Of a DNA stretch of 64,000 nt, positions 4,807 to 34,807 are shown piece after piece. The notes under the pieces were generated by a model. It saw nothing but the letters and a program-made list of their open reading frames with translations. It was not told the DNA's origin and searched no databases. Location of the stretch: the NCBI GenBank assembly GCA_019828545.1, contig JACVRA010000050.1, positions 372,001 to 436,000 on the forward strand, given 5' to 3'. Position 1 is the stretch's first letter; each line of letters opens with the position of its first letter. Origin of the DNA: Paracamarosporium sp. OC-R06-R3. Lineage: Eukaryota; Ascomycota; Dothideomycetes; Pleosporales; Didymosphaeriaceae. The translations under genes were made by a program, and so were the position numbers.

Positions 4807-7226
4807 GGTGATGTGACCCTGCGATGGGTTGCTGTATGCAGATGAGGTGCGTAGGGGAGGGGCACACGCAGATAAAGTACACTGTAGAGACGAAAGCACT
4901 AAGCGCTAACCCCGGGGCAGGGCTGCAAACGCGCACATATCCCCGCATGCTAATCCGTTCGTGGCGCGTTCGTCCATTGCGGGCGTGCCATCGTTGGTGG
5001 AGAAAATCAGATCCGGGGTAATCATGGCCGAGGCCAATTTCCCCGTGGGCCAGCGGAAGCCATGCCTGTTGCATGCGCCATCCCCGCATGCGTCCCCAAG
5101 ACAAGCGGGACAAGCAGGCTAGAATGCTTGTCGAAGCATTCCGTGCAATCTCATTGCGCCGGTGATCAGACTCTCCAGGTCGTAGCTCGCAAGCCATTGA
5201 GCCGTCGTTTTAGAAAAGTGTAGAGGCCTGGACGGAAAATCTTGCAACTGAGGGGGGGGCGGGTCGTGGTAAACACGACGGAGCGCCATTCGCTCGAGCT
5301 GTTCTGGCCGGTAGGGGCATGCGGTCGGTGGGCAAGGAACAACTGGCTCCATGTAGACGGGAGACGATCATCTCCGAAGTTGGTTGTATACGGCCTGTGG
5401 TGAACTGGGTGTGTTGCGGGCACGGCGCTGGGAGCGCCCAGGTTCAGTACGCCTCGCCTCGGACCGATGTCCGATGCAGGCAAGCAACGGTAGGGTCTGA
5501 CCATTTGCGTGGTGCTCTCCGAGATCAGTAGCCACCCACGCTTCCTGGACAAGCACGAGCTGCAGGCAGCCTTCCCTTACATCACCAAGCTACCGCGACT
5601 GTGGATGTCGGATCTGTTTCCGCATTCGCGGTAGATACAACGCCGCTCCATCTCCAATAGCGTGTGGAACCGGGTGCCTGGGCGTGCTAGAATGTCGCCG
5701 TTGGCGCGCGTTGGCTGCTCGCGAGGCCATGCTTTGTTCTATCAAACAGCGATTGCAAGGTGGCCCCCAAAGTATCTGCACAGCAGCTCGTCTATCGACA
5801 GCAAAAAGCTTTACATAACACGAGGAGGATCGTAGGCGTCGCGTGGCTGGCCGTGAAGCGTGGCGGCGCCAGGTTAGCGACGCGGCTCGCTCCCTGTGGC
5901 GGCGCCGCCATATGCTTCGCATGCTTGTCTTGACCAAACGCCGGCGCCAGTGTAGGCCAGGTCGTAGGTCGAATACGTGCATTTTGGAATCGCGGATGCA
6001 TGGCCAGTTCTGGGTAGAAGACTGGACGTTCCAGCACAAACCCATGGTTGCGGTCACCGCCAGCGCGGTCACGCATGGACAGGTGCCCACTCCAGTGGGG
6101 CGCCGCACCAATTCTTGTTGCGCTGCAAGACATAAAACGAGAACAACCAACAATGCCGACAAGGCTAGATGAGCGTGAGAGGGTACGGCGAAGGTTGCCT
6201 CGGCTCCTGTGGTGGAGCCGACTGAGGTGGAGCCGATCCGCACGGGGCTCGCCAGAAGCATCCCCACGGGGAGGCGTCGTAGCACCACGTGCAAATTACC
6301 ACAGCACTATATCCAACATGAGCCAAGACCAGTAACTATCATCGCATCATCCTAACGCGTATGGTACAAGGGAGTTGCTCGCCAGTGTAGTCGGTGTCAG
6401 AGATCCAAACATCACGTGCAGAGGAGTTCTCCAGGGCTCTTTCCGATCAATCATACTCTGGGGAGAGGAAGATGACGCTTCTATCCAATCAAAAGTTGGA
6501 AGTGACCTTCACACGACCCCGAGTTCTTTCCGGCTCCTGCAACCCTTTCAGATATTTTGAATAATATTCTAGCCTGTATATCAGGATACAAGCATAAAAT
6601 CGATTAAATTGAATATGATTACTAAACTCGACTATAGACTGCTTTTTCAATCTCACTTTCAAGCGAAAATAAGAGCATGATACTACGAAGATTTTGGTGT
6701 TACTACCCCTGCAAGAATCCCTGTTTCACGTGACCTAAGAAGTTCTAAGCTCGCTCTTGGTACGCCTACACTCGATAACAATACCGTATAGTCTTGCAAT
6801 TTGCGGCTGACCAGGGGGGGCTGAGACTTGACCAGAAATTAGCGAAGAGCATGAAAGTGGACCTTTATAACGGTGAGCACGTGGTGATTGGTACTTGGCT
6901 CACCCAGGATTTGCAAAACTCTGCTACGTACGGTAACCACTATTAAAATAGTCGAACATAATCCTAGTCGCACAAATATCGAAATGTCTAAATCGGCCGT
7001 TATCTCATCTACTTGCAACAACAAAAACAGGGGTTTAGATATACCCGCCCATAAATATGGTATTGGTTTGGCCTTAATTGGGCAGGTCGATGGTGTCGAC
7101 TACAACTGTGGTCCGCTTGCCAGACTGCCGATGCACTGTTTTCGTAGCGAGCGTTGGTTTAAAAGTTACTATAAACACAATGTCGTGGGTTCATAGTAAG
7201 GATTGTGTTGCAGGTCCTTTTTCGAG
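4807..7226. other. long intergenic region, GC-rich then AT-rich
   Basis: Bases from about 4900 to 6300 are unusually GC-rich for a non-coding part of this window and hold several overlapping open frames of 60-234 codons, but none shows a domain, signal peptide or sensible splice pattern. A small hairpin (cggctcc / ggagccg) lies near 6199-6218. From about 6550 the DNA is AT-rich. I support no gene here. Confidence 0.5.
7170..7175 (+). promoter_or_regulatory. TATA box candidate of the AA9 gene
   Basis: TATAAA lies 52 bases before the ATG at 7227, a usual distance in this window (compare 32715, 47155 and 54563). Confidence 0.4.
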
Positions 7227-9264: not shown

Positions 9265-9921
9265 ATGGACGAAGACTGGCAATCCGCTGCCCTTACCTCT
9301 CGCCACATGCATAATCGCGTCCAGAGCAAACATTCCGGCCGAAACCGACCCTTTGACGTGTATAAAACGTTCGGCAGCTATTCGTGTAAGTGCGCTGCAT
9401 GGCAAAATCGACACACTAAATACGACACAAAAGAGGAAATAACATTAGAGCTGTACCGCTTATCCCCAAATGGAGAGGGTATCATCGGTGAGATTTATTT
9501 CCCGGGCGTGCTCAAAGCGGCGGTGATTCTGGCGGCGAGCCGGGAAAGCCTGAATGCGATAGTACAAGAGATCGAAGCAGAGGTCACTGAACAAAAGGAG
9601 AGCGACCTAAGAGATATTGACGACCCCGAGAGCGAGCGAGATCCTGGAGAGGAGCTGGCGCGATTCCAGGCATTCGAAAAGAACAGTTTCCGAACACCCA
9701 AATTTTGGCTTCGCTGGAATGGCGTAATTAAAGATTCTGAGGTGACTTCGAGCGACTTGGGATATATAGTTTTTTCTGGGGCCGACTGTCGAAAATTTAA
9801 AGGGACAATCACCTGCGGCGCGGTAGATTGGAAAGACGTTGCCATCGTTGGTCATAGGATTGCTGGGAGAGGAGCGTCTGATATACCAATCAATTGGAAC
9901 AAGCAAACACATGTGCTATAG
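9265..9921 (+). CDS. uncharacterised protein, 218 residues
   Basis: A single intact frame starting at caatATGGAC. There is no signal peptide or membrane segment. The middle reads like a folded domain (FGSYSCKCAAWQ...TLELYRLSPNGEGIIGEIYFPGVLKAAVILAASRESL, residues about 36-95), followed by a Glu/Asp-rich linker (about 100-135) and a second globular-looking part (FWLRWNGVIKDSEV...GYIVFSGADCRKFKGTI). I do not recognise the family beyond an impression that related small proteins occur in other Pleosporales. It sits 0.4 kb from the RiPP precursor, but nothing in the sequence ties it to that locus. Confidence 0.6.
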   Translation: MDEDWQSAALTSRHMHNRVQSKHSGRNRPFDVYKTFGSYSCKCAAWQNRHTKYDTKEEITLELYRLSPNGEGIIGEIYFPGVLKAAVILAASRESLNAIVQEIEAEVTEQKESDLRDIDDPESERDPGEELARFQAFEKNSFRTPKFWLRWNGVIKDSEVTSSDLGYIVFSGADCRKFKGTITCGAVDWKDVAIVGHRIAGRGASDIPINWNKQTHVL

Positions 9922-10356: not shown

Positions 10357-10800
10357 TTAGATCCAATCAGGAAAAGCCTTCGCATCAACATCCGCCTCTG
10401 CATTCTCACGCTTAATCCAGTCGGGGAAGGCCTTCGCGTCATCTGCCTCCGCATTCTCACGCTTGATCCAGGTAGGGAATGCTTGGATGTCAGCGTCCGC
10501 TGCCGCCTTCTCACGCTTGATCCAGGTAGGGAATGCTTGGATATCAGCGTCTGCTGCCGCCTTCTCACGCTTGATCCAGGTAGGGAATGCTTGGATGTCA
10601 GCGTCTGCTGCCGCCTTCTCACGCTTGATCCAGGTAGGGAATGCTTGGATATCAGCGTCCGCTGCCGCCTTCTCACGCTTGATCCAGTCAGGGAATGCTT
10701 TCGTGTCGACATCTGCGACTGGCTTTGTAGGTAGAGCCATCGCGCTGGATGCGGCGCCAAATGCGCAGAGAGCCAATGTTGACAGTCTCATGGTGACCAA
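10357..10800 (-). CDS. RiPP precursor: secreted protein with seven KR-bounded AFP(T/D)WI cores
   Basis: 147 residues from the ATG at 10800, or 144 from the ATG at 10791 (MRLSTLALC), which is the more usual signal-peptide start. After the signal (to about SSAMA) and a short leader come seven cores: AFPDWI once, AFPTWI four times, AFPDWI twice. The first six are followed by Lys-Arg, a Kex2 site; the seventh ends the protein. Between cores lie acidic Ala-rich spacers (EKAAADADIQ, ENAEADDAK). This plan, signal peptide then multiplied short cores separated by KR, is that of fungal dikaritin-type RiPP precursors (ustiloxin, phomopsin, asperipin, victorin types). Two UstY-like genes lie within 1.1-4 kb. 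The core sequence matches none of the known products I can recall. Trp and Phe would be the likely cross-link residues (inference). The alternative, an alpha-factor pheromone, is disfavoured because the Cys-containing core of filamentous ascomycete pheromones is absent. Confidence 0.88.
   Translation of the reverse strand: MVTMRLSTLALCAFGAASSAMALPTKPVADVDTKAFPDWIKREKAAADADIQAFPTWIKREKAAADADIQAFPTWIKREKAAADADIQAFPTWIKREKAAADADIQAFPTWIKRENAEADDAKAFPDWIKRENAEADVDAKAFPDWI
10465..10680. repeat. four perfect-length 54-bp tandem repeats inside the RiPP precursor gene
   Basis: Units begin at 10465, 10519, 10573 and 10627. They differ at only two positions, and both differences are synonymous (GAC/GAT for Asp and GCG/GCA for Ala on the coding strand). 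Each unit encodes one spacer, core and KR site. Confidence 0.97.
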
Positions 10801-11898: not shown

Positions 11899-12546
11899 TC
11901 ACCCTATGAACGGCTCATCCCCTCCCCTTCCCGGGCATTCAGGAAACTTCCTCCTGATTACCGTTCCACGACGTTCCAACTCTTTAGTGCGGTCTAGCAA
12001 CATGGTCTCGCAATGTGTCGTGTGCGCCCAGTTACCAATGTAGCTATCCAATGGACGATCATCAAGGATCGCTCGATGCATTTTCTTCCACATGAACGTG
12101 CAATGATGGAGGTGATATTCCCACGAAACGCGCAGCTCTGCATATTGGCCCGATGAAACATCGTCAAGGGAAAGCGATGTGTCAAGGTCAGTGTCCAAGG
12201 AAGTTGGGTGCGGCAACCACCACGTCCAATTTTTCAGCGCGAGGAAGTCTTCCATGAGAGGCTTGTCGAAGCAGGACTGATGCGACCAGGTGAATGACAT
12301 GACATCGAAGTGACAGCCGAGAGCGCGTGCTTCGTCGCTAGTCTTTCCACAGTTACGAGTTGGTTCTATTCGCGGTCGCGTCGCGAAGACCGCGCCCATG
12401 GCAAGCAGAAAAAGAAGGGCCACACATGTCACAATGTGCCAAAGTCGACGACGTGGTGATTTTGAAGGCAGAGAAGGTGGTTGTGATTCCGGCCCGGTAA
12501 GTCGTCCAGATCCGAGCGGTGTGTACGTGTATGCGCTCCGGTCCAT
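11899..12546 (-). CDS. UstY-like membrane-anchored protein (HHC / HTTHC type)
   Basis: The frame is open from 12774, but I take the ATG at 12546 (MDRSAYTYTPLG). This gives 215 residues with a short cytoplasmic tail, one TM helix at about 35-55 (LWHIVTCVALLFLLAMGAVFA) and an external domain. That domain has CGKTSDEARALGCHFDVMSF, WEYHLHHCTFMWKKMH (His/Cys about 145-149) and HTTHC (175-179). Paired HxxHC-type motifs behind a single TM are the pattern of UstYa-family oxidases (DUF3328), which cyclise RiPP cores. This protein belongs to a more distant branch marked by ARALGCxFD, so its catalytic role is an inference. It is transcribed away from the second UstY gene (13566), and the precursor lies 1.1 kb downstream on the same strand. 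Confidence 0.78.
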   Translation of the reverse strand: MDRSAYTYTPLGSGRLTGPESQPPSLPSKSPRRRLWHIVTCVALLFLLAMGAVFATRPRIEPTRNCGKTSDEARALGCHFDVMSFTWSHQSCFDKPLMEDFLALKNWTWWLPHPTSLDTDLDTSLSLDDVSSGQYAELRVSWEYHLHHCTFMWKKMHRAILDDRPLDSYIGNWAHTTHCETMLLDRTKELERRGTVIRRKFPECPGRGGDEPFIG

Positions 12547-13565
12547 ATTGCGTAAAGGTATTCTTGCCAAATGTGAAATGCTCGATCGACTCAGAAGATG
12601 CTGCCGTTGCGAATAGACACTTGGTCTCTGTTCGCCTAAATGGACATGCGAACGTGTTTCGTCAAAATTGTAGCCTGCATAGTGTTGTATCAAAGTGTGT
12701 TTCTGTTCCAAGAATTCAGTGTGGGGAGCCCGTGATGTTAGCGTCAGATCAATCCTTTTGCTCGTCGTCATCATAAGGTGTGGATGGTGCGCGGTTATTT
12801 CCGTTAGCTACCATGCCCAGCTCGGAAGGCGGTTCGCGAAGCCATTCCTTACTCTTAGTCTGACCCGTGGTGTCGCCTTTTCGGACCTATTTTGTGATAA
12901 GCAGTTTTTTTTTGCTGATAAGACCGCGTGTAGTTTCGAGATCTAGAAGCTGGTATGGGTCGCGACGTCTGACTTACGAGTCGAATGTATCACGAGTACT
13001 GTAGGCCATATTCCAAGAAAGGCAGGCGATTACTTAACGTAGTCCCATTCCTGGTTTCGTTCGGAATTAGTGTGTACTATATATACGCTAATTCTGTAGT
13101 ATGAAAACCGTTCGTGAAATCGAGCAGATCGTGAGCGATTACCGGTAATCTAGAACCATAGACAGGGCATGATTTCAAAGCTGCACATGCGCTGTACCGT
13201 ACGCGTGTCTTCTATGCAGCTTGCCCTCTTTAGGGAATTTGCCTACCGGGAGTGGGTGGGCATTGACGGCACGTTGCGTAAGGATTACGAGGTCAAAGAA
13301 GCAAAAAAAAAAAATCATACGAGTGGGTGGGACGTACGAGAATACACCTAAAAGACACGGGAAATTAGTACGATTGTACTGCAGGGTAAATTTGTAAGAG
13401 ACGAGTTGGAGGCCTGGCGACCCCGCCCTATACACCCGAATTCTCAAAGAGGGTATGACCTCTAGTCTTTTGCCACCCAACCACTTCATCTCCCCATGAC
13501 GTCCATCCGTCAACCAGTGCACCTTTCTTCAGCTTTCAAGGGTAACATTTTGGAGATCAGTATCT
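12547..13565. other. shared divergent promoter region of the two UstY-like genes
   Basis: About 1 kb between divergent starts at 12546 and 13566. Contains T- and A-rich runs (12904-12912, 13303-13313). No gene is supported. A bidirectional promoter is an inference from gene orientation. Confidence 0.4.
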
Positions 13566-14531
13566 ATGGCACATTCCTATCATGACAGATCTTCGTACAG
13601 CGAAGAAGACATGGAAAGTGACAAGCGAGGGCTTTTGGAAGATTTGAAACAACGAAAGCACAAAAGTTCTAGAGGAATATATGTGCTGTCATGTTTACTG
13701 GCGGTATCCATTGTTGTGAACATTGTTCTTTTACTGAAAAGTAGTCGATGGGAACCTCCAAGGCTATACTGTAAGAGTTTAAGGACGTCTTACACAAAAC
13801 TTTCACTAATGTGTGGTCAGCACCCGCAAAAGGGGTCTTGAAAGAAAAGCTTATTACTTTCGGGAGCTCGGTGGAGGGAACTGGATATTCTGCATATCAA
13901 GGCGCACCAGACGAGCAGAACAACCAACTATGGCGATCTCTCTACAGCAGTACGTTTCATATCTCTACACATGATCGACCGACAATGACTAATTCTGCTC
14001 GCAGATTCACCATCGAGCATATCCCCTTCGGAAGCTCGTCTCCTTCCCAACAAGACCGCCTCCGCCACGCCTTGGCTCGACCCCGAAACTTCTAGATATG
14101 TTATCCTGCTCAATGTGTTTCACAATCTGCACTGTCTCGACCGACTGCGACAAACGATATGGTACTTCCACGAGCCGCAGTTTAATAGCACTAGCAACCC
14201 CTACACGCTTTACAACGGCAATGTTACGGCGGCCCTTCGCGACCGCGGGTCGTCGTTCATGGACATAACACACGCGGACCATTGCATCGAGATGCTCAGG
14301 CAGTCGGCAATGTGCGAAAGCGATGTCACACCCGTGGTGTATCAGTATAGTGAGAAAACTGGAAAGTCAACGGGAAGGACGGGAGTGTTGCATCAATGCA
14401 AGGATTTTGAGCAAGTACAGGACTGGGCACGAAGGAGGGTGACAGATGTGCCAGAAGTTTGGGGGAAGGGAGTCGAGCTGGGTCTTTGTGCAGTCGACGA
14501 TCCGGAGAGTTGCGAAGAAGTGGATTTGTAG
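13566..14531 (+). CDS. UstYa-family (DUF3328) protein, likely RiPP core oxidase
   Basis: Three exons: 13566-13770, 13821-13949 and 14005-14531, with donors GTAAGA and GTACGT. They give 286 residues, the usual size. There is a cytoplasmic tail, one TM at 37-58, then the family signatures: a segment like SPSEARLLPNKT, VFHNLHCLDRLRQ (His151, His154, Cys155) and ITHADHCIEMLRQSAMCESD (His201, His204, Cys205). In ustiloxin, asperipin and phomopsin pathways such proteins oxidise and macrocyclise precursor cores in the secretory route; a metal centre on the His/Cys motifs is presumed. Its closeness to a KR-repeat precursor makes this the best candidate cyclase for AFPTWI/AFPDWI. Confidence 0.9.
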
Positions 14532-26941: not shown

Positions 26942-27834
26942 GGTGGGTAGGCGGTGCAGAGTTATGGCGAAGAAGCTGCAGCAAAGCTTGAGCGTAGAGC
27001 TAAGCAGATATAAATGCTTAGTAGTCGTGAGCACGAGGTGCGACAGGGTAGATACAGGGTTGATAAGGCGCGGGCAAGGCTCGCTACGCCGGTCTAGAAC
27101 CCTGGCGGACTCCGGGCGTGGGAAGCCCGTGCTCCAGAGGATGGAAGATAGAGAATGTGTTGACTTTTGTTGGTCGCAGTGGTGAAGAGGCGTCGGTACT
27201 CGCGTGGTACTACGCCATTTGTCGCGATATGGCGTGATTGGCCTGGGGTTGGGCCATGCGAAACCCCAGACGGAGAATAGAGGCTGCATGACACGTCTGC
27301 AGGGTGCAAGAGAAGTTTCTCATGCTGTGTCTTTTCATGGCGACCCATGATGATTGCGGGGGATGAACAAAACTCTGACCCGAGCTCGTAGAGCTACCAC
27401 TTTCCAGATAGGTAGAACCGCATCCTTTCGCGTATTGATCTGCCTTCGGACTCTATCTTGCCAGCGAAAAGGCTGCCGAGTCTTTGGGCAAGGAGATTCA
27501 TGGGATTCATGGGTAATCTTACCCCATTGAGAAAAGCCGATTCCAGATACGGCCTAGCGTTGCAACCACAGCTATCTCCAGTGCAGTGTGAACCCCAACA
27601 ACCGAGCACCAAAGTCGAAGACGCGAGCATGGAGCCAGTTTGCGTGGAATCAAGGCCTCGGGACAGCAGATACGACTCACAGATGCCGCCCAGCAATATG
27701 CGAGCGGTGACATTCGAGGTTAGGCGGCATCAGGCAGGTGTAGGATACACACGACTCCATAAGCAGATAGGACAACCTATGCCGAGCATACGATACAAGA
27801 CACAGCACTCGGCGCGCTTGTCGTACACATATCT
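26942..27834. other. divergent promoter region between permease and NRPS
   Basis: About 0.9 kb. Open frames on both strands at 27394-27928 show no NRPS or transporter motif. I find no upstream exon that would complete the NRPS N-terminus. Confidence 0.5.
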
Positions 27835-30800
27835 TTGCACCATGGCACACAACAGAGCTCGCCCTCATCCAAAGCCATGGGACCCACGAGCGCCAACCCC
27901 GTGTCCTGCGCCGCCTGGGCCATCGTAACGGCTCGCCATGCCGGTATAGACGACACTTGCGAGGCTGCCTTTGCAAACTCGCTGCGTCTGACTTTCTCTG
28001 CCGCAACGGAAATCGGTAGCTTGTTGCACCAGGCAAGGCAAGCATTCGAGTCCATCGACGCGAAGAGCCTGAGCCTCCCTGACATGGTACTCAAGACAGC
28101 CGCCGGTGAGCAACATGCGCCCGTGGTCCCAGCCGACATCCTCGACGCGCATTGCCACCAGGCGATGCTCCAGCTACAGTCGCTGTCTCCCTCGACACGG
28201 ATCGGAGAAGTCGACATGGCCTGCGCCGTGGACAGGCAACACGTGCTGCGATGGAACCAAGAAGCGCCGCCGCGCGTTGACGAGACGCTGTGCAGCCTTT
28301 TCGCACGTCAGGCGTGCGCGCGACCGGATGCGCCTGCCGTGTGTTCGTGGGACGGCGACCTCAGCTATGCGCAATTGGACCGTCTATCGGCAAGCTTCGC
28401 GGGCGAGCTGCGGCGTCGGGGCGTGCGTGGGCAGCAGGTGGTTGCGCTGTGTTTCGACAAGTCGCTAGTGGCCGTGGTCGCAATGTTGGGGGTCCTTCGA
28501 GTGGGGGCCGCCTTCGTCAACCTCAACATCGCATTGCCCCGCCAGAGACAGTCCGCCATTCTCAGCGCGGCCCAGGCTGCTCTCCTCGTAGTCGATGCCA
28601 ACAATGCGGCCTGCCTCAGCAACCATCAGACGGTACCGGGCCTTTGTATCGACCGCGAATTCGTCGCATCCCTCGCGGCACCAACGACGCCGCTCCCCGA
28701 GACGGCCCCCAGCGATGCCGCCGCCATCACCTTCACGTCGGGCTCCACTGGCACTCCCAAGGGCATTGTCGTGGAGCATGGCTCCATCGCGACCAGCTGC
28801 GATGCCATGGCAAGCCGCCTAGACCTGGGCCCCCACTCACGCGTGCTGCAGTTCGCTTCCTACACCTTCGATGCCAGCGTCGGCGACATCTTCTACGCCC
28901 TGACCCGCGGCGCCTGTGTCTGCACCCCGTCTGAGCACGAGCGTGTCAATGACTTGGCCGCAGCGGCTCGAAGGATGCAGGTGAATTGGGCTTTCTTGAC
29001 TCCGTCTGTCCTTTCGCTGCTGGAACCGCACCATGTGCCCTCGCTGCGACGCCTTCTGGTCGGAGGCGAGAAGCCGGATCCAAAGCACATCGCTCTTTGG
29101 GCACAGAGCGTATCGCTTCATCTTGTCATGGGCCCTGCAGAGTGTGCCATATACTGCGCTGCCAGCGACGCCATCCGACCCGGCCAGGATACGTCGACTT
29201 TCGGGCGAGCTGCCGGCTGCCGGTATGTATATCCCAGGCACGCAGTGCATTGTCCTTACTGACCTCGTACCTTCCCCATCAGCTTGTGGGTCGTCGACGA
29301 GCATGACCATTCGAGGCTTGCGCCTGCAGGCTGTCTGGGTGAATTGATCGTCGAGGGACGTATCGTAGCTCGCGGCTACTTAGACGACCCTGAGCGTACG
29401 CGTCTGGTCTTCCTAGATGCGAACGAATTACCGTGGCTACCGCGACAACACGAATCCCGTCTATACAAGTCTGGAGATCTGGTGCGATTCAATGTCGAGG
29501 ACGGTACGTTTTCCTTTGTCGCCCGCAAAGACAACCAAGTCAAGCTGCACGGCCAGCGGGTAGAGCTCAGCGAGATCGAGTATCATTTAAAAAGTACTAT
29601 CCCGGATGTGGACAGCGCCCTTGCCTTGCTCAACACCTCTGCAGAACACACGCACAGGCACCCGCTCGTTTGTTACCTAGTATTCGCACGAACCTCTGTG
29701 ATCGTGGATAATGCAAGCGTTTTGATTCCGTCTCTAACTTCTCTTGGGACTGATCTACTACGCAAAGCGAGAGACCAGCTAGCAACTATCTTGCCCGCCT
29801 ACATGGTCCCAACGCTGTTTGTTCCCATCAGCCATGTACCATTCACTGCCAACGGAAAGCGGGACACAGCAAAGTTACGCCATGTTCTCCAAGGACTATC
29901 GCAAGACCAGCTCCATAGTTTTTCACTGGCCCAGGAAATTGAATCAACTGCAAGACCCTTCTCTCAACACGAGGAGCAACTACGAGAACTATGGGCCCTC
30001 GTGCTTCACGTGAGCCCATCAGACCTAGGACTAAACAGTGACTTCCTCGGAGAGGGCGGCGATTCTCTCGCTGCTATGCACTTGGTGTCGGCGGCAATGA
30101 GAGCAGGATGGCATTTACGAGTGTCCACGATCTTGATGCACCCTCGTTTATCTGATATGGCATCGAAGATGCGTCCACTAGAATCACAAACACCAGTGAG
30201 AGATGCAACGCCAGCCCCATTCTCTCTCCTTCCACCTGCACTGGATGCTATGCAACTCAAGTCTTATTGCGCAGCTGCTTGTGCATTAGATGCGGACCAG
30301 ATCGACGATATTTACCCAACAACTCCGCTTCAGGAAGTCCTCTGGAAGGCCTCGGAAAGACGGCCTGGCACTTATATTCTGCAGATGAGCTATCAACTCC
30401 CTTCATCCGGCCTACTGGAGACTTTTATATCGGCGTGGGATCAAGTTGTGCAAACTACCGACACTCTTCGGACCAGATTCGTCTCCGAGCCTTACGCGGG
30501 CTACCTCCAGGTCGTCTCGAAAGCGTTCGATTGGGACATGTACAAAGACATGGACGACTTTCGCAATTGCAACCCCTATGCTACTATGGCTCTCGGTGGC
30601 CGTCTGGCACGGCTAGCCATAATCAAGACGACCGAGACACCCATCTTTGTTTTTGCTGCGCACCACGTGCTCTACGATGCCTTCATGCTCAATATGATGT
30701 TCAGGCGCGTCGCCGAAGTTTGCAAGACTGTAAGACATGCACCTATTCACGTGGCTTTGATGCTAACAGTCCCCTGTAGGGACATACTTCCGCCTTATCA

Positions 30801-31550
30801 CCTTTCAAAAACTACGTCTCCTATATCAACCACCTTCCTTCGGCACCGTCAATGTCCTTCTGGAAAGCTGCTCTTCACGACAGCCCCGCCCCTACTTGGC
30901 CACCTCCATCCCCAGCAGACATCAAAACCACGGCAACCATCCGCCACCAGATTCGCTTTCCAGTCCGGCCCACCGAATTCACAATCGCAACCGCAGCACA
31001 AGCAGCCTTTACCCTACTTTCGGCCGCTTATATTCAAGCCGATGACACCGTCTTCAGTATGACGTTCTCTGGCCGTGACGCCGATGTACCCTCTATCCTC
31101 GACACCGCCGGGCCGACTCTCTACACAATTCCGTTTCGCATGCAAATCAAGCCCAGCGTCACACTACGCAGTTTCTTCGAAGAAGTACGTGGTTTCATCC
31201 GAGACAGTGCGCCATATGGCCACATTGGTCTTCCGGCGATTGCCCGCTCCAGCCCTGATGCTGCACGCGCATGCGATGTGCGGTGCGTATTCTCAGTTCA
31301 ACCTCAGCATGTTGTCGCTCCGGAGGATGTCTTCGGGCCCAGAACATCGTTTCGAGAAGAGATGGGTCGATTGCCCTTGATTTTTGAGTGTTTCATTGTC
31401 CCGGGCGGTATGGAGATCGTTGCGGAGTACAATACAGGGAGCTTAGAGAGAACAGGCGTACAAGAGCTTGTTGAACGGTTTGAAAGAGTGCTGGCGCGGC
31501 TTTTAGGGATGCAAATGAATGAGGCGGTGAGTGACGTCGCTTTAGATTGA
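27835..31550 (+). CDS. nonribosomal peptide synthetase, partial C - A - T - C
   Basis: Exons 27835-29222, 29283-30729 and 30780-31550 join to about 1201 residues; the ATG at 27877 is an alternative start. The first ~130 residues look like the C-terminal lobe of a condensation domain (AAWAIVTARHAGIDD ... VLRWNQEAPP) lacking its catalytic part. The A domain follows with TFTSGSTGTPKG (about 299-310), FASYTFDASVGDIF, MGPAEC at 432 in place of the usual YGPTE, YKSGDLVRF, RKDNQVKLHGQRVELSEIE and PFTANGKRD. The T domain has GEGGDSLAAM with the pantetheine Ser near 724. The final C domain has AAHHVLYDA (about 923-929), an Ala where HHxxxDG has Gly. It should activate one amino acid and condense or release it. 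Substrate cannot be predicted here. Confidence 0.9.
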
Positions 31551-32775: not shown

Positions 32776-34807
32776 ATGCCTCGGCTTGCCCTTCTTTCGC
32801 TGCTCTTCGCCTGCAGCACTTCAGTCAACGCAGCGGCTCTCGGTGCTCGTCAAAGCGATAGTAACGGAACTAGCTTTGTGAGCATTCCCCAGAAAGATGG
32901 CGCTCTAGCAGATCGAAAGAAGGAAGTCGCATATCGGCACGACAACTTCCTTTACAATGTGTCTCAAATTGGCAATGCAGCAGCATTTCCAATGGGCAAG
33001 CTTGGGGAGGAGCGGGTAGCGCTGGCTTGGGATCAGTGGCAGGTTGACCGCAATCTCATCACTTCCGAAATTCAAAAAGATGTTGCAAAGATCAAGCAGG
33101 CAATCATGGCGGTAAGGAATTACTCTGGTCTAGCAGAAGCATAGGCTGACACACAGGTAGAAAAACGGTAGCCTTGCGACCTTGGATGACTACGCAACAG
33201 TTCTGTACAAGGATCAGTGGCTCAACGCATCCCCATTGAAGCCTGCTATTGGCTCTTTGACCAACTACACCCTCGATTCCTTCTTCGGTGGGGAGAGGCT
33301 GGTGCGTCCTTACTCGCTGTACAAAGCGACTGATAAGGACGTGAAGCTCATCAGCATATCCGATGACGAGGCGAAGAGCATTGCAGGAGTGACAGTGGAT
33401 GAGCTACTCCGTACCGATCGGCTTTTTGCCGTTGATCGTAAGTACTCAAACTTTCCGGTCCTGACTTCTACTAACTTCACCGAGACCGCTACCAGGCGGA
33501 CCAGGAGACCTACGTACCCTCGCAGTTCAATGATAAATATGGAGCTCCAGTTTCGGCACTCTTTTACATCAACTCCAATGGCGACTTGCTTCCATTGGGC
33601 ATCCGCACCAATGTCGGCACGAACCTTACCTACACCCCGCTTGACAAAGACAAAGATTGGCTTCTCGCCAAGATCATGTTCAACGTTGCCGACCAGTTCT
33701 ACAACCAGATCTATCATCTCACGGCTACTCATAATGTAGGAGAAGCTCTGCACGAAGCCGCTATGCGTACGATGAGCGACAAGCATCCCATCATGGCTGT
33801 ACTCGATCGTCTCAACTACCAAGCGTACTCTGCTCGACCGTAAGCTAAAGTCCCTCAATCGCTCGATTTAAGCTCACCTTAGCAGTGTCGGTGAAGCTCT
33901 CTGCTTCAACCCCATGGGTCACTGGGATGAGAACTTCCACATCAGTCAAATAGGGTACGTCTTCCGTTGTAGTCATTTGACGCATGTAGTAACTGGGGAT
34001 AGTTGCCGCAACTTTGTCACTAAGAACTGGCCCACACAAGGCGCCTTCGAACCCAACTATCTGCAATCCGACTTTGAAGCTCGTGGCCTTGTCGACAATT
34101 CTGGGAAGTATCCTTTTAAACAATTTCCCTTCTGGGACGATGCATCGGAGATCGTTCGCATTCAACGCGCCTTCTTTACTTCTTTCATCGACACATACTA
34201 CGATGGCGACGACCATGTCTCCGCTGATCACGAGGTTTCTGCCTGGTTCGACGAAGTTCACCGCGGGCCGACGGGTCCGGAGGTGGAGGCCCAGGGCTTG
34301 ACCCCAGTGCAGTCTTTCCCCACCAAAGCAACCAAAAAGGTCCTCGTAGACGTCCTGACGCACAATGCCTGGCTTCAAGTAGCTCACCACTCGCTTAACG
34401 CGGGCGACCCTGTTCGCTCTTCTCTGACGCTGCCTTTCCACCCCGGCGGCCTATACAAACCCGTGCCTGAATCCAAGGGTATCGATTCTATCGTCCCCTT
34501 CCTACCCAACGCCACCGCTTCAGTAACATACATCGGCTTCCTCGCGTCCTTCAACCGCCCGCGATACCGGACCATGGATCCGCCGCGCACGCTTGCATAC
34601 GCCTACTCGGGCGCAGAGTTCCTTGCTCGCTTCGCGGAGAAGGAGGTCCACGATGCAGCGGGGAAGTACCTTGAAGCGATGAACAAACTGGGTGCGAAGA
34701 ATGACGCGCGTAAAATTGAGGTGGATGGGCTGTGTAGCGAGCAGGGCATTCCGTTCTGCTGGACGGCGCTCAACCCGTCGTACATTCCGTGGTTTTTCTC
34801 GGTGTAA
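32776..34807 (+). CDS. secreted manganese-type lipoxygenase
   Basis: Five exons: 32776-33111, 33161-33437, 33485-33839, 33886-33954 and 34003-34807, giving 613 residues. A signal peptide (MPRLALLSLLFACSTSVNA) is followed by a region with several NxS/T sites. The metal-site pattern is WLLAK, 14 residues, His282, 4 residues, His287, 3 residues, Glu. The other ligands fit His474 and Asn478 (HHSLN) and the C-terminal Val613 (PWFFSV). The WLLAK form with a terminal Val is typical of fungal manganese lipoxygenases rather than the iron type. Such enzymes add oxygen to linoleic or alpha-linolenic acid outside the cell. Position of attack cannot be read from sequence alone. Neighbouring genes also encode secreted proteins, so a role during plant contact is plausible. 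Confidence 0.92.

Follow-up and report, generated by a model that had tools for sequence, protein, structure and literature searches.

A tyrosine-free AFP[T/D]WI repeat precursor beside two UstYa-type genes: a probable new addition to the dikaritin-type RiPPs

In a 64,000 nt stretch of DNA from Paracamarosporium sp. OC-R06-R3 (hereafter, the window), we found a gene for a repeat precursor with the core AFP[T/D]WI next to a diverged UstYa-like gene, designated here type B, and to a canonical UstYa gene (Table 1). There are strong grounds to believe that these three adjacent genes form a minimal dikaritin-type RiPP cluster, from which peptides would be released by Kex2 and modified by copper oxidases of the UstYa kind. 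Judging from sequence, the product is probably a modified peptide of this known fungal class, and the cluster is probably a new, Tyr-free addition to it that includes a second kind of oxidase.

The precursor gene starts at the first ATG of its reading frame, at 10,791, and not at 10,800, as proposed in the first-pass annotation, which corresponds to a TTG codon. The minus-strand translation agrees with the seven hexapeptide cores annotated there, four AFPTWI (residues 50, 68, 86, and 104; cores 2–5) and three AFPDWI (residues 32, 121, and 139; cores 1, 6, and 7), and hence with the claim that at least two related peptides, a Thr and an Asp form, are encoded. The cores are arranged in tandem with Kex2 sites (KR) between them: as annotated, KR follows cores 1–6, whereas core 7 constitutes the C-terminus. 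The leader, MRLSTLALCAFGAASSAMA, is hydrophobic, with a Kyte-Doolittle mean of 1.35 over residues 1–20, and the precursor is probably a secreted protein. The spacers are EKAAADADIQ (four times), ENAEADDAK, and ENAEADVDAK; a residue count of the six KR-to-KR pieces after the first gave a net charge of −2 in four and −4 in two, so the spacers are indeed acidic. TRF described the array as a 54-bp unit in 4.7 copies with 95% match, and its score of 455 was the highest of the ten TRF rows in the window.

Table 1. Coordinates of the precursor, its two oxidase genes, and other features mentioned in the text.
Feature	Location	Positions	Strand	Remarks
Precursor gene	Window	10,357–10,791	−	144 aa plus TAA; no intron
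Probable signal peptide	Window	10,732–10,791	−	Residues 1–20; basis hydropathy only
Core 1	Window	10,681–10,698	−	AFPDWI, then KR
Core 2	Window	10,627–10,644	−	AFPTWI, then KR
Core 3	Window	10,573–10,590	−	AFPTWI, then KR
Core 4	Window	10,519–10,536	−	AFPTWI, then KR
Core 5	Window	10,465–10,482	−	AFPTWI, then KR
Core 6	Window	10,414–10,431	−	AFPDWI, then KR
Core 7	Window	10,360–10,377	−	AFPDWI, then stop (TAA)
Diverged UstYa-like gene, type B	Window	11,899–12,546	−	215 aa from ATG at 12,546
Canonical UstYa gene	Window	13,566–14,531	+	Exons 13,566–13,770, 13,821–13,949, 14,005–14,531; PF11807 107.5 bits (cut-off 25) on exon 3
ORF adjoining precursor	Window	9,265–9,921	+	218 aa; no Pfam match
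NRPS pieces	Window	27,763–31,550	+	AMP-binding and condensation domains in neighbouring frames
Lipoxygenase piece	Window	33,872–34,804	+	PF00305 33.8 bits
Pheromone-ending pattern match	Window	4,912–4,931	+	Probably chance
Further precursor near UstYa	L027	5,087–5,611		
Further precursor near UstYa	L029	3,263–3,625		
Further precursor near UstYa	L030	3,106–3,471		
Further precursor near UstYa	L032	7,552–7,824		
Further precursor near UstYa	L033	2,452–3,201		
Further precursor near UstYa	L036	6,267–6,650	+	Tyr-free; adjoins canonical UstYa
Further precursor near UstYa	L037	2,569–3,429		
Further precursor near UstYa	L039	3–521		
Further precursor near UstYa	L045	2,765–3,130		
Further precursor near UstYa	L047	596–1,021		
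Further precursor near UstYa	L058	1,992–2,396		
Cys-containing repeat near UstYa	L028	6,823–7,272	+	Few KR; looser screen only
Three-copy repeat near UstYa	L046	3,327–3,563	−	KK, not KR; looser screen only

Repeat arrays can also encode unprocessed structural wall proteins or other repeat proteins, or be in decay; in this sense, the near identity of units 2–5 may come from slippage, and Pfam gave two repeat matches on the precursor ORF, both below threshold (PY_rept_46, 20.3 bits, and DUF7428, 17 bits; cut-off 27 for each). We nevertheless consider this very unlikely, because KR follows all six internal cores, the reading frames of the precursor, type B, and UstYa genes are intact, and codon changes among the cores of units 1, 6, and 7 are all synonymous. 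Compared pairwise, these cores show three, three, and five synonymous codon differences and none that changes an amino acid. The corresponding spacers differ by one synonymous and five amino-acid-changing codons plus one indel (1 vs. 6), by four synonymous and five amino-acid-changing codons (1 vs. 7), and by three synonymous and no amino-acid-changing codons plus one indel (6 vs. 7); these counts are not independent, and units 2–5, being nearly identical, carry little information on core conservation. The hexapeptide is, then, conserved; its N-terminal end is left unfixed by the codon comparison, and we place it at the Ala only provisionally. The motif FPxWIKR, searched as a DNA pattern, had six matches in the 43.1-Mb genome, all of them inside the precursor ORF, while the reversed pattern used as control had none. 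The core had been annotated as undescribed and, in keeping with this, AFPTWI, AFPDWI, FPTWIKR, and FPDWIKR were not found in the main texts of open papers; the supplementary tables of repeat-precursor surveys could list the core.

The same plan of leader, repeats, and KR sites is also that of alpha-type mating pheromone precursors, and the repeat contains Trp. However, pheromones of filamentous ascomycetes have two Cys per peptide, whereas the only Cys of the whole precursor is in the leader and the repeats have none. Additionally, with three exceptions, KEPs annotated as mating factor or pheromone had no DUF3328 (UstYa) neighbour in the survey of Kex2-processed repeat proteins, a source available in part (PMC7329392). 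A pheromone function is consequently the least credible of the explanations considered, and extremely improbable. A pattern modelled on the pheromone ending gave two single matches in the genome vs. one in the control, and so does not reveal the true pheromone gene; one of the two lies in the window, and is probably due to chance since the control also gave one.

The neighbourhood of the precursor supports the dikaritin-type plan put forward in the first-pass annotation: Pfam annotation of 16 distinct ORFs of the window places a canonical UstYa gene (PF11807) 2.8 kb from the precursor and in the opposite orientation, and type B, on the same strand as the precursor, lies in between. The canonical gene contains two introns, of 50 and 55 bases and both GT-AG, and its product shows the motif HNLHC-x45-HADHC; its structure model was poor (pLDDT 57.2). 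The remaining ORFs above the Pfam cut-offs, none of them obviously connected with the precursor, correspond to an AA9 enzyme, a sugar transporter (two pieces), an acyl-CoA dehydrogenase, an amino-acid transporter, NRPS pieces, and a lipoxygenase. None of the 39 genome matches to tyrosinase (PF00264) falls in the window, the nearest one on the contig being around 71 kb from UstYa, and none of the six to S41 peptidases (PF03572) is on the contig, hence none in the window. The 218-aa ORF adjoining the precursor may or may not be a gene of the cluster.

The product of type B, which would be 291 aa long from an alternative in-frame upstream ATG at 12,774, contains the motif HLHHC-x25-HTTHC. The general form HxxHC-x25-HxxHC is present in all 15 aligned type-B relatives (the protein from the window and 14 others), as well as in two aligned paralogs from the same genome, and 11 of the 15 also match CG-x4-EA-x3-[GS]C. 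The spacing is thus exactly 25 residues in type B vs. 23 to 50 in 14 segments of canonical UstYa genes from the same genome. The protein from the window had no Pfam match, PF11807 included, and this model reached E ≤ 1 in only three of the 15 type-B proteins (best E, 0.013); because the protein from the window does not reach its cut-off, we name it UstYa-like, outside PF11807. In profile comparisons with the 14 UstYa segments of the genome, the broader type-B alignment gave a probability of 85.5% and an E-value of 5.7e-6, and a comparison of the narrower one with UstYa was weak (14.6%, E 0.0018). The structure model of type B (pLDDT 89.7) has one helix at residues 18–42, which would be a membrane anchor preceding a luminal helical domain, and both HxxHC motifs are on helices (129–148 and 160–171); a search of the PDB with this model returned no useful match. 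A UstYa-like family outside PF11807 was not described in the titles and abstracts found by our literature search. These characteristics point to type B as a second kind of oxidase, putatively copper-dependent, that is missed in searches with PF11807, and this Pfam-invisible partner is the least expected part of the cluster.

The association of type B with UstYa genes and repeat precursors recurs in the genome. PF11807 had 75 matches, which reduce to 54 places once matches less than 500 bases apart are merged. Type B was found at six places, in two cases by a weak match (E 0.0018 and 0.009). Each of the six is no more than 5,219 bases from a UstYa place; the zone so defined covers 1.4% of the genome. 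Together they make up five loci: the window, C142, C260, C111, and C148. Tandem-repeat precursors occur in four of the five, with the repeats VDEGFSKIIY-KR in C142, VDQAFVNVAYFGL in C260, and DVAYNN...GGYK in C111; none was found within the stretches read of C148. This recurrence bears on whether the AFP[T/D]WI peptide could be a linear, secreted Kex2 product (a signal, antimicrobial, or repellent peptide) that is never oxidised, with the nearby UstYa genes serving another substrate. In the same survey (PMC7329392), only 22% of 7,878 Kex2-processed repeat proteins had a DUF3328 gene nearby, suggesting that linear products may be common, and a core without Tyr also agrees with this possibility. 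But no oxidase gene is nearer to the precursor than the two UstYa-type genes, both within 2.8 kb, and C142, C260, and C111 repeat this trio, so we regard a linear product as unlikely and favour the oxidised one.

A strict screen detected a KR-repeat precursor in 10 of 21 UstYa regions, a part of the 54 places selected non-randomly by their UstYa score (C142 and C111 by their type-B match). It found none in 420 codon-shuffled versions, a control that tests for chance alone, since shuffling destroys any repeat, and does not address other genes with repeats. Elsewhere in the window this screen yielded no gene-like match, its two rows being the precursor ORF and a shifted frame of it. A looser screen added C76 and C172 among the 21 regions, and C111 in a further stretch. 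Altogether, UstYa genes of this genome have eleven more repeat precursors in their vicinity, an unusually rich dikaritin-type repertoire; examples of their cores are QWYDLTYID, QYHGKNVVK, APLVYVGGL, FAPWYRATNILPA, and AAPAYVWAS. The looser screen alone retrieved a Cys-containing repeat, VDCTRDLDARACAWSKYV, and a three-copy repeat, YARADGVPLSFNIVKK, both near UstYa genes. With a dozen or so precursors in a single genome, the pairing of substrates and oxidases becomes directly testable.

For the oxidised product we propose the following route. The leader would take the precursor into the secretory pathway, where a Kex2-type protease would cleave after each KR and a carboxypeptidase would strip this dipeptide, giving peptides that end in Trp-Ile; this C-terminus is fixed by core 7, which ends at the stop codon. 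Another protease would trim the acidic spacer. UstYa and type B, both membrane-anchored and in the same lumen, would then act on the core as copper-dependent oxygenases, the likely outcome being that Trp, Phe, or both are oxidised or crosslinked, with at least two products, the Thr form and the Asp form.

The precursor does not contain a single Tyr, and a Tyr ether as in ustiloxin, phomopsin, and asperipin is thus impossible in its core; the lack of a tyrosinase match in the window likewise excludes an ether of the ustiloxin type. Victorin is another Tyr-free core. The modification site is likely Trp or Phe. Since DUF3328 proteins also hydroxylate and halogenate, the safe inference is an oxidation of Trp or Phe, of which a bridge would be one form; the cyclisation held probable in the first-pass annotation is likewise an inference. 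Among the 14 precursors compared, including two less certain ones (C76 and C172), the only other without Tyr is that at C42, with the Trp-rich cores DSDD[I/V]WLW (L036 in Table 1). Of the repeated sequences near DUF3328 genes, 65.6% contain Tyr and 20.5% Trp, according to the available part of the survey (PMC7329392), and a Trp core beside UstYa is therefore not unexpected. We saw no solved product of such a core in the literature covered, partly available; there, the characterised crosslinks use Tyr, which counts against a dikaritin-type reading.

The repeated pattern F-x(2-7)-[Y/W] is present in the four precursors beside type-B genes vs. one of the ten other precursors compared (one-sided Fisher test, 0.005, for a pattern chosen post hoc), which we take as a hint found after looking. 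It allows the tentative and rather doubtful proposal that, in a Tyr-free dikaritin, UstYa and the Pfam-invisible copper oxidase (HxxHC-x25-HTxHC) act as a pair, crosslinking Phe with a Trp or Tyr located downstream. If true, AFPTWI would be converted into a peptide with a Phe-Trp bridge, and the site of the crosslink could be predicted from sequence by means of the second oxidase family.

Only one close candidate appeared among 7,997 scored sequences from 5.8 billion proteins, PRK78_005658 of Emydomyces testavorans, with a weak E-value (0.066). Its sequence (...AQALTWI-KREKGED...AQTLTWI-KR..., with HPLNWI at the end) resembles our precursor in its plan: each of the three repeats closes with L[T/N]WI, KRE[N/K] follows every core but the last, and this last core ends the protein. 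The core residues differ (ALTWI, TLTWI, and PLNWI). Conversely, searched against the Paracamarosporium genome it retrieved only the AFP[T/D]WI precursor (three pieces; best E, 6.7e-5). Emydomyces belongs to the Onygenales, and the likeness could thus stem from an old family, from a transfer, or from Trp-Ile ends that arose convergently.

Kex2-processed repeat proteins share the plan described here, and their survey, in its available part, reports cores with Trp accompanied by Pro near DUF3328 genes (type P-3; PMC7329392). CctR is a DUF3328 protein that hydroxylates cyclochlorotine as an oxygen-dependent binuclear copper oxygenase; the part of its description that was available coincides with both oxidases found here in the N-terminal transmembrane helix, the luminal helical domain, and the motif HxxHC(x)nHxxHC, although its substrate is a non-ribosomal cyclic peptide (PMC12435403). 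What type B adds is the indication of a second oxidase family, which accompanies UstYa and precursors and escapes the Pfam model for UstYa. The ustiloxin and phomopsin clusters also have a leader, multiple KR cores, and more than one DUF3328 protein; in them, however, Tyr is joined to Ile by an ether with the help of a tyrosinase, and phomopsin-like clusters include S41 peptidases, these two enzymes being absent from the window (PMC6514808, PMC9233826; both available in part). The asperipin-2a cluster, as described in the same partial source, is similarly small, without tyrosinase, and has a DUF3328 oxidase and a repeat precursor with a hexapeptide core, but this core, FYYTGY, is linked through Tyr ethers and the cluster combines one DUF3328 gene with a reductase and a transporter, instead of two UstYa-type genes (PMC6514808). 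To this class, whose crosslinks as characterised in the sources covered use Tyr, AFP[T/D]WI would add a core that has Trp and no Tyr.
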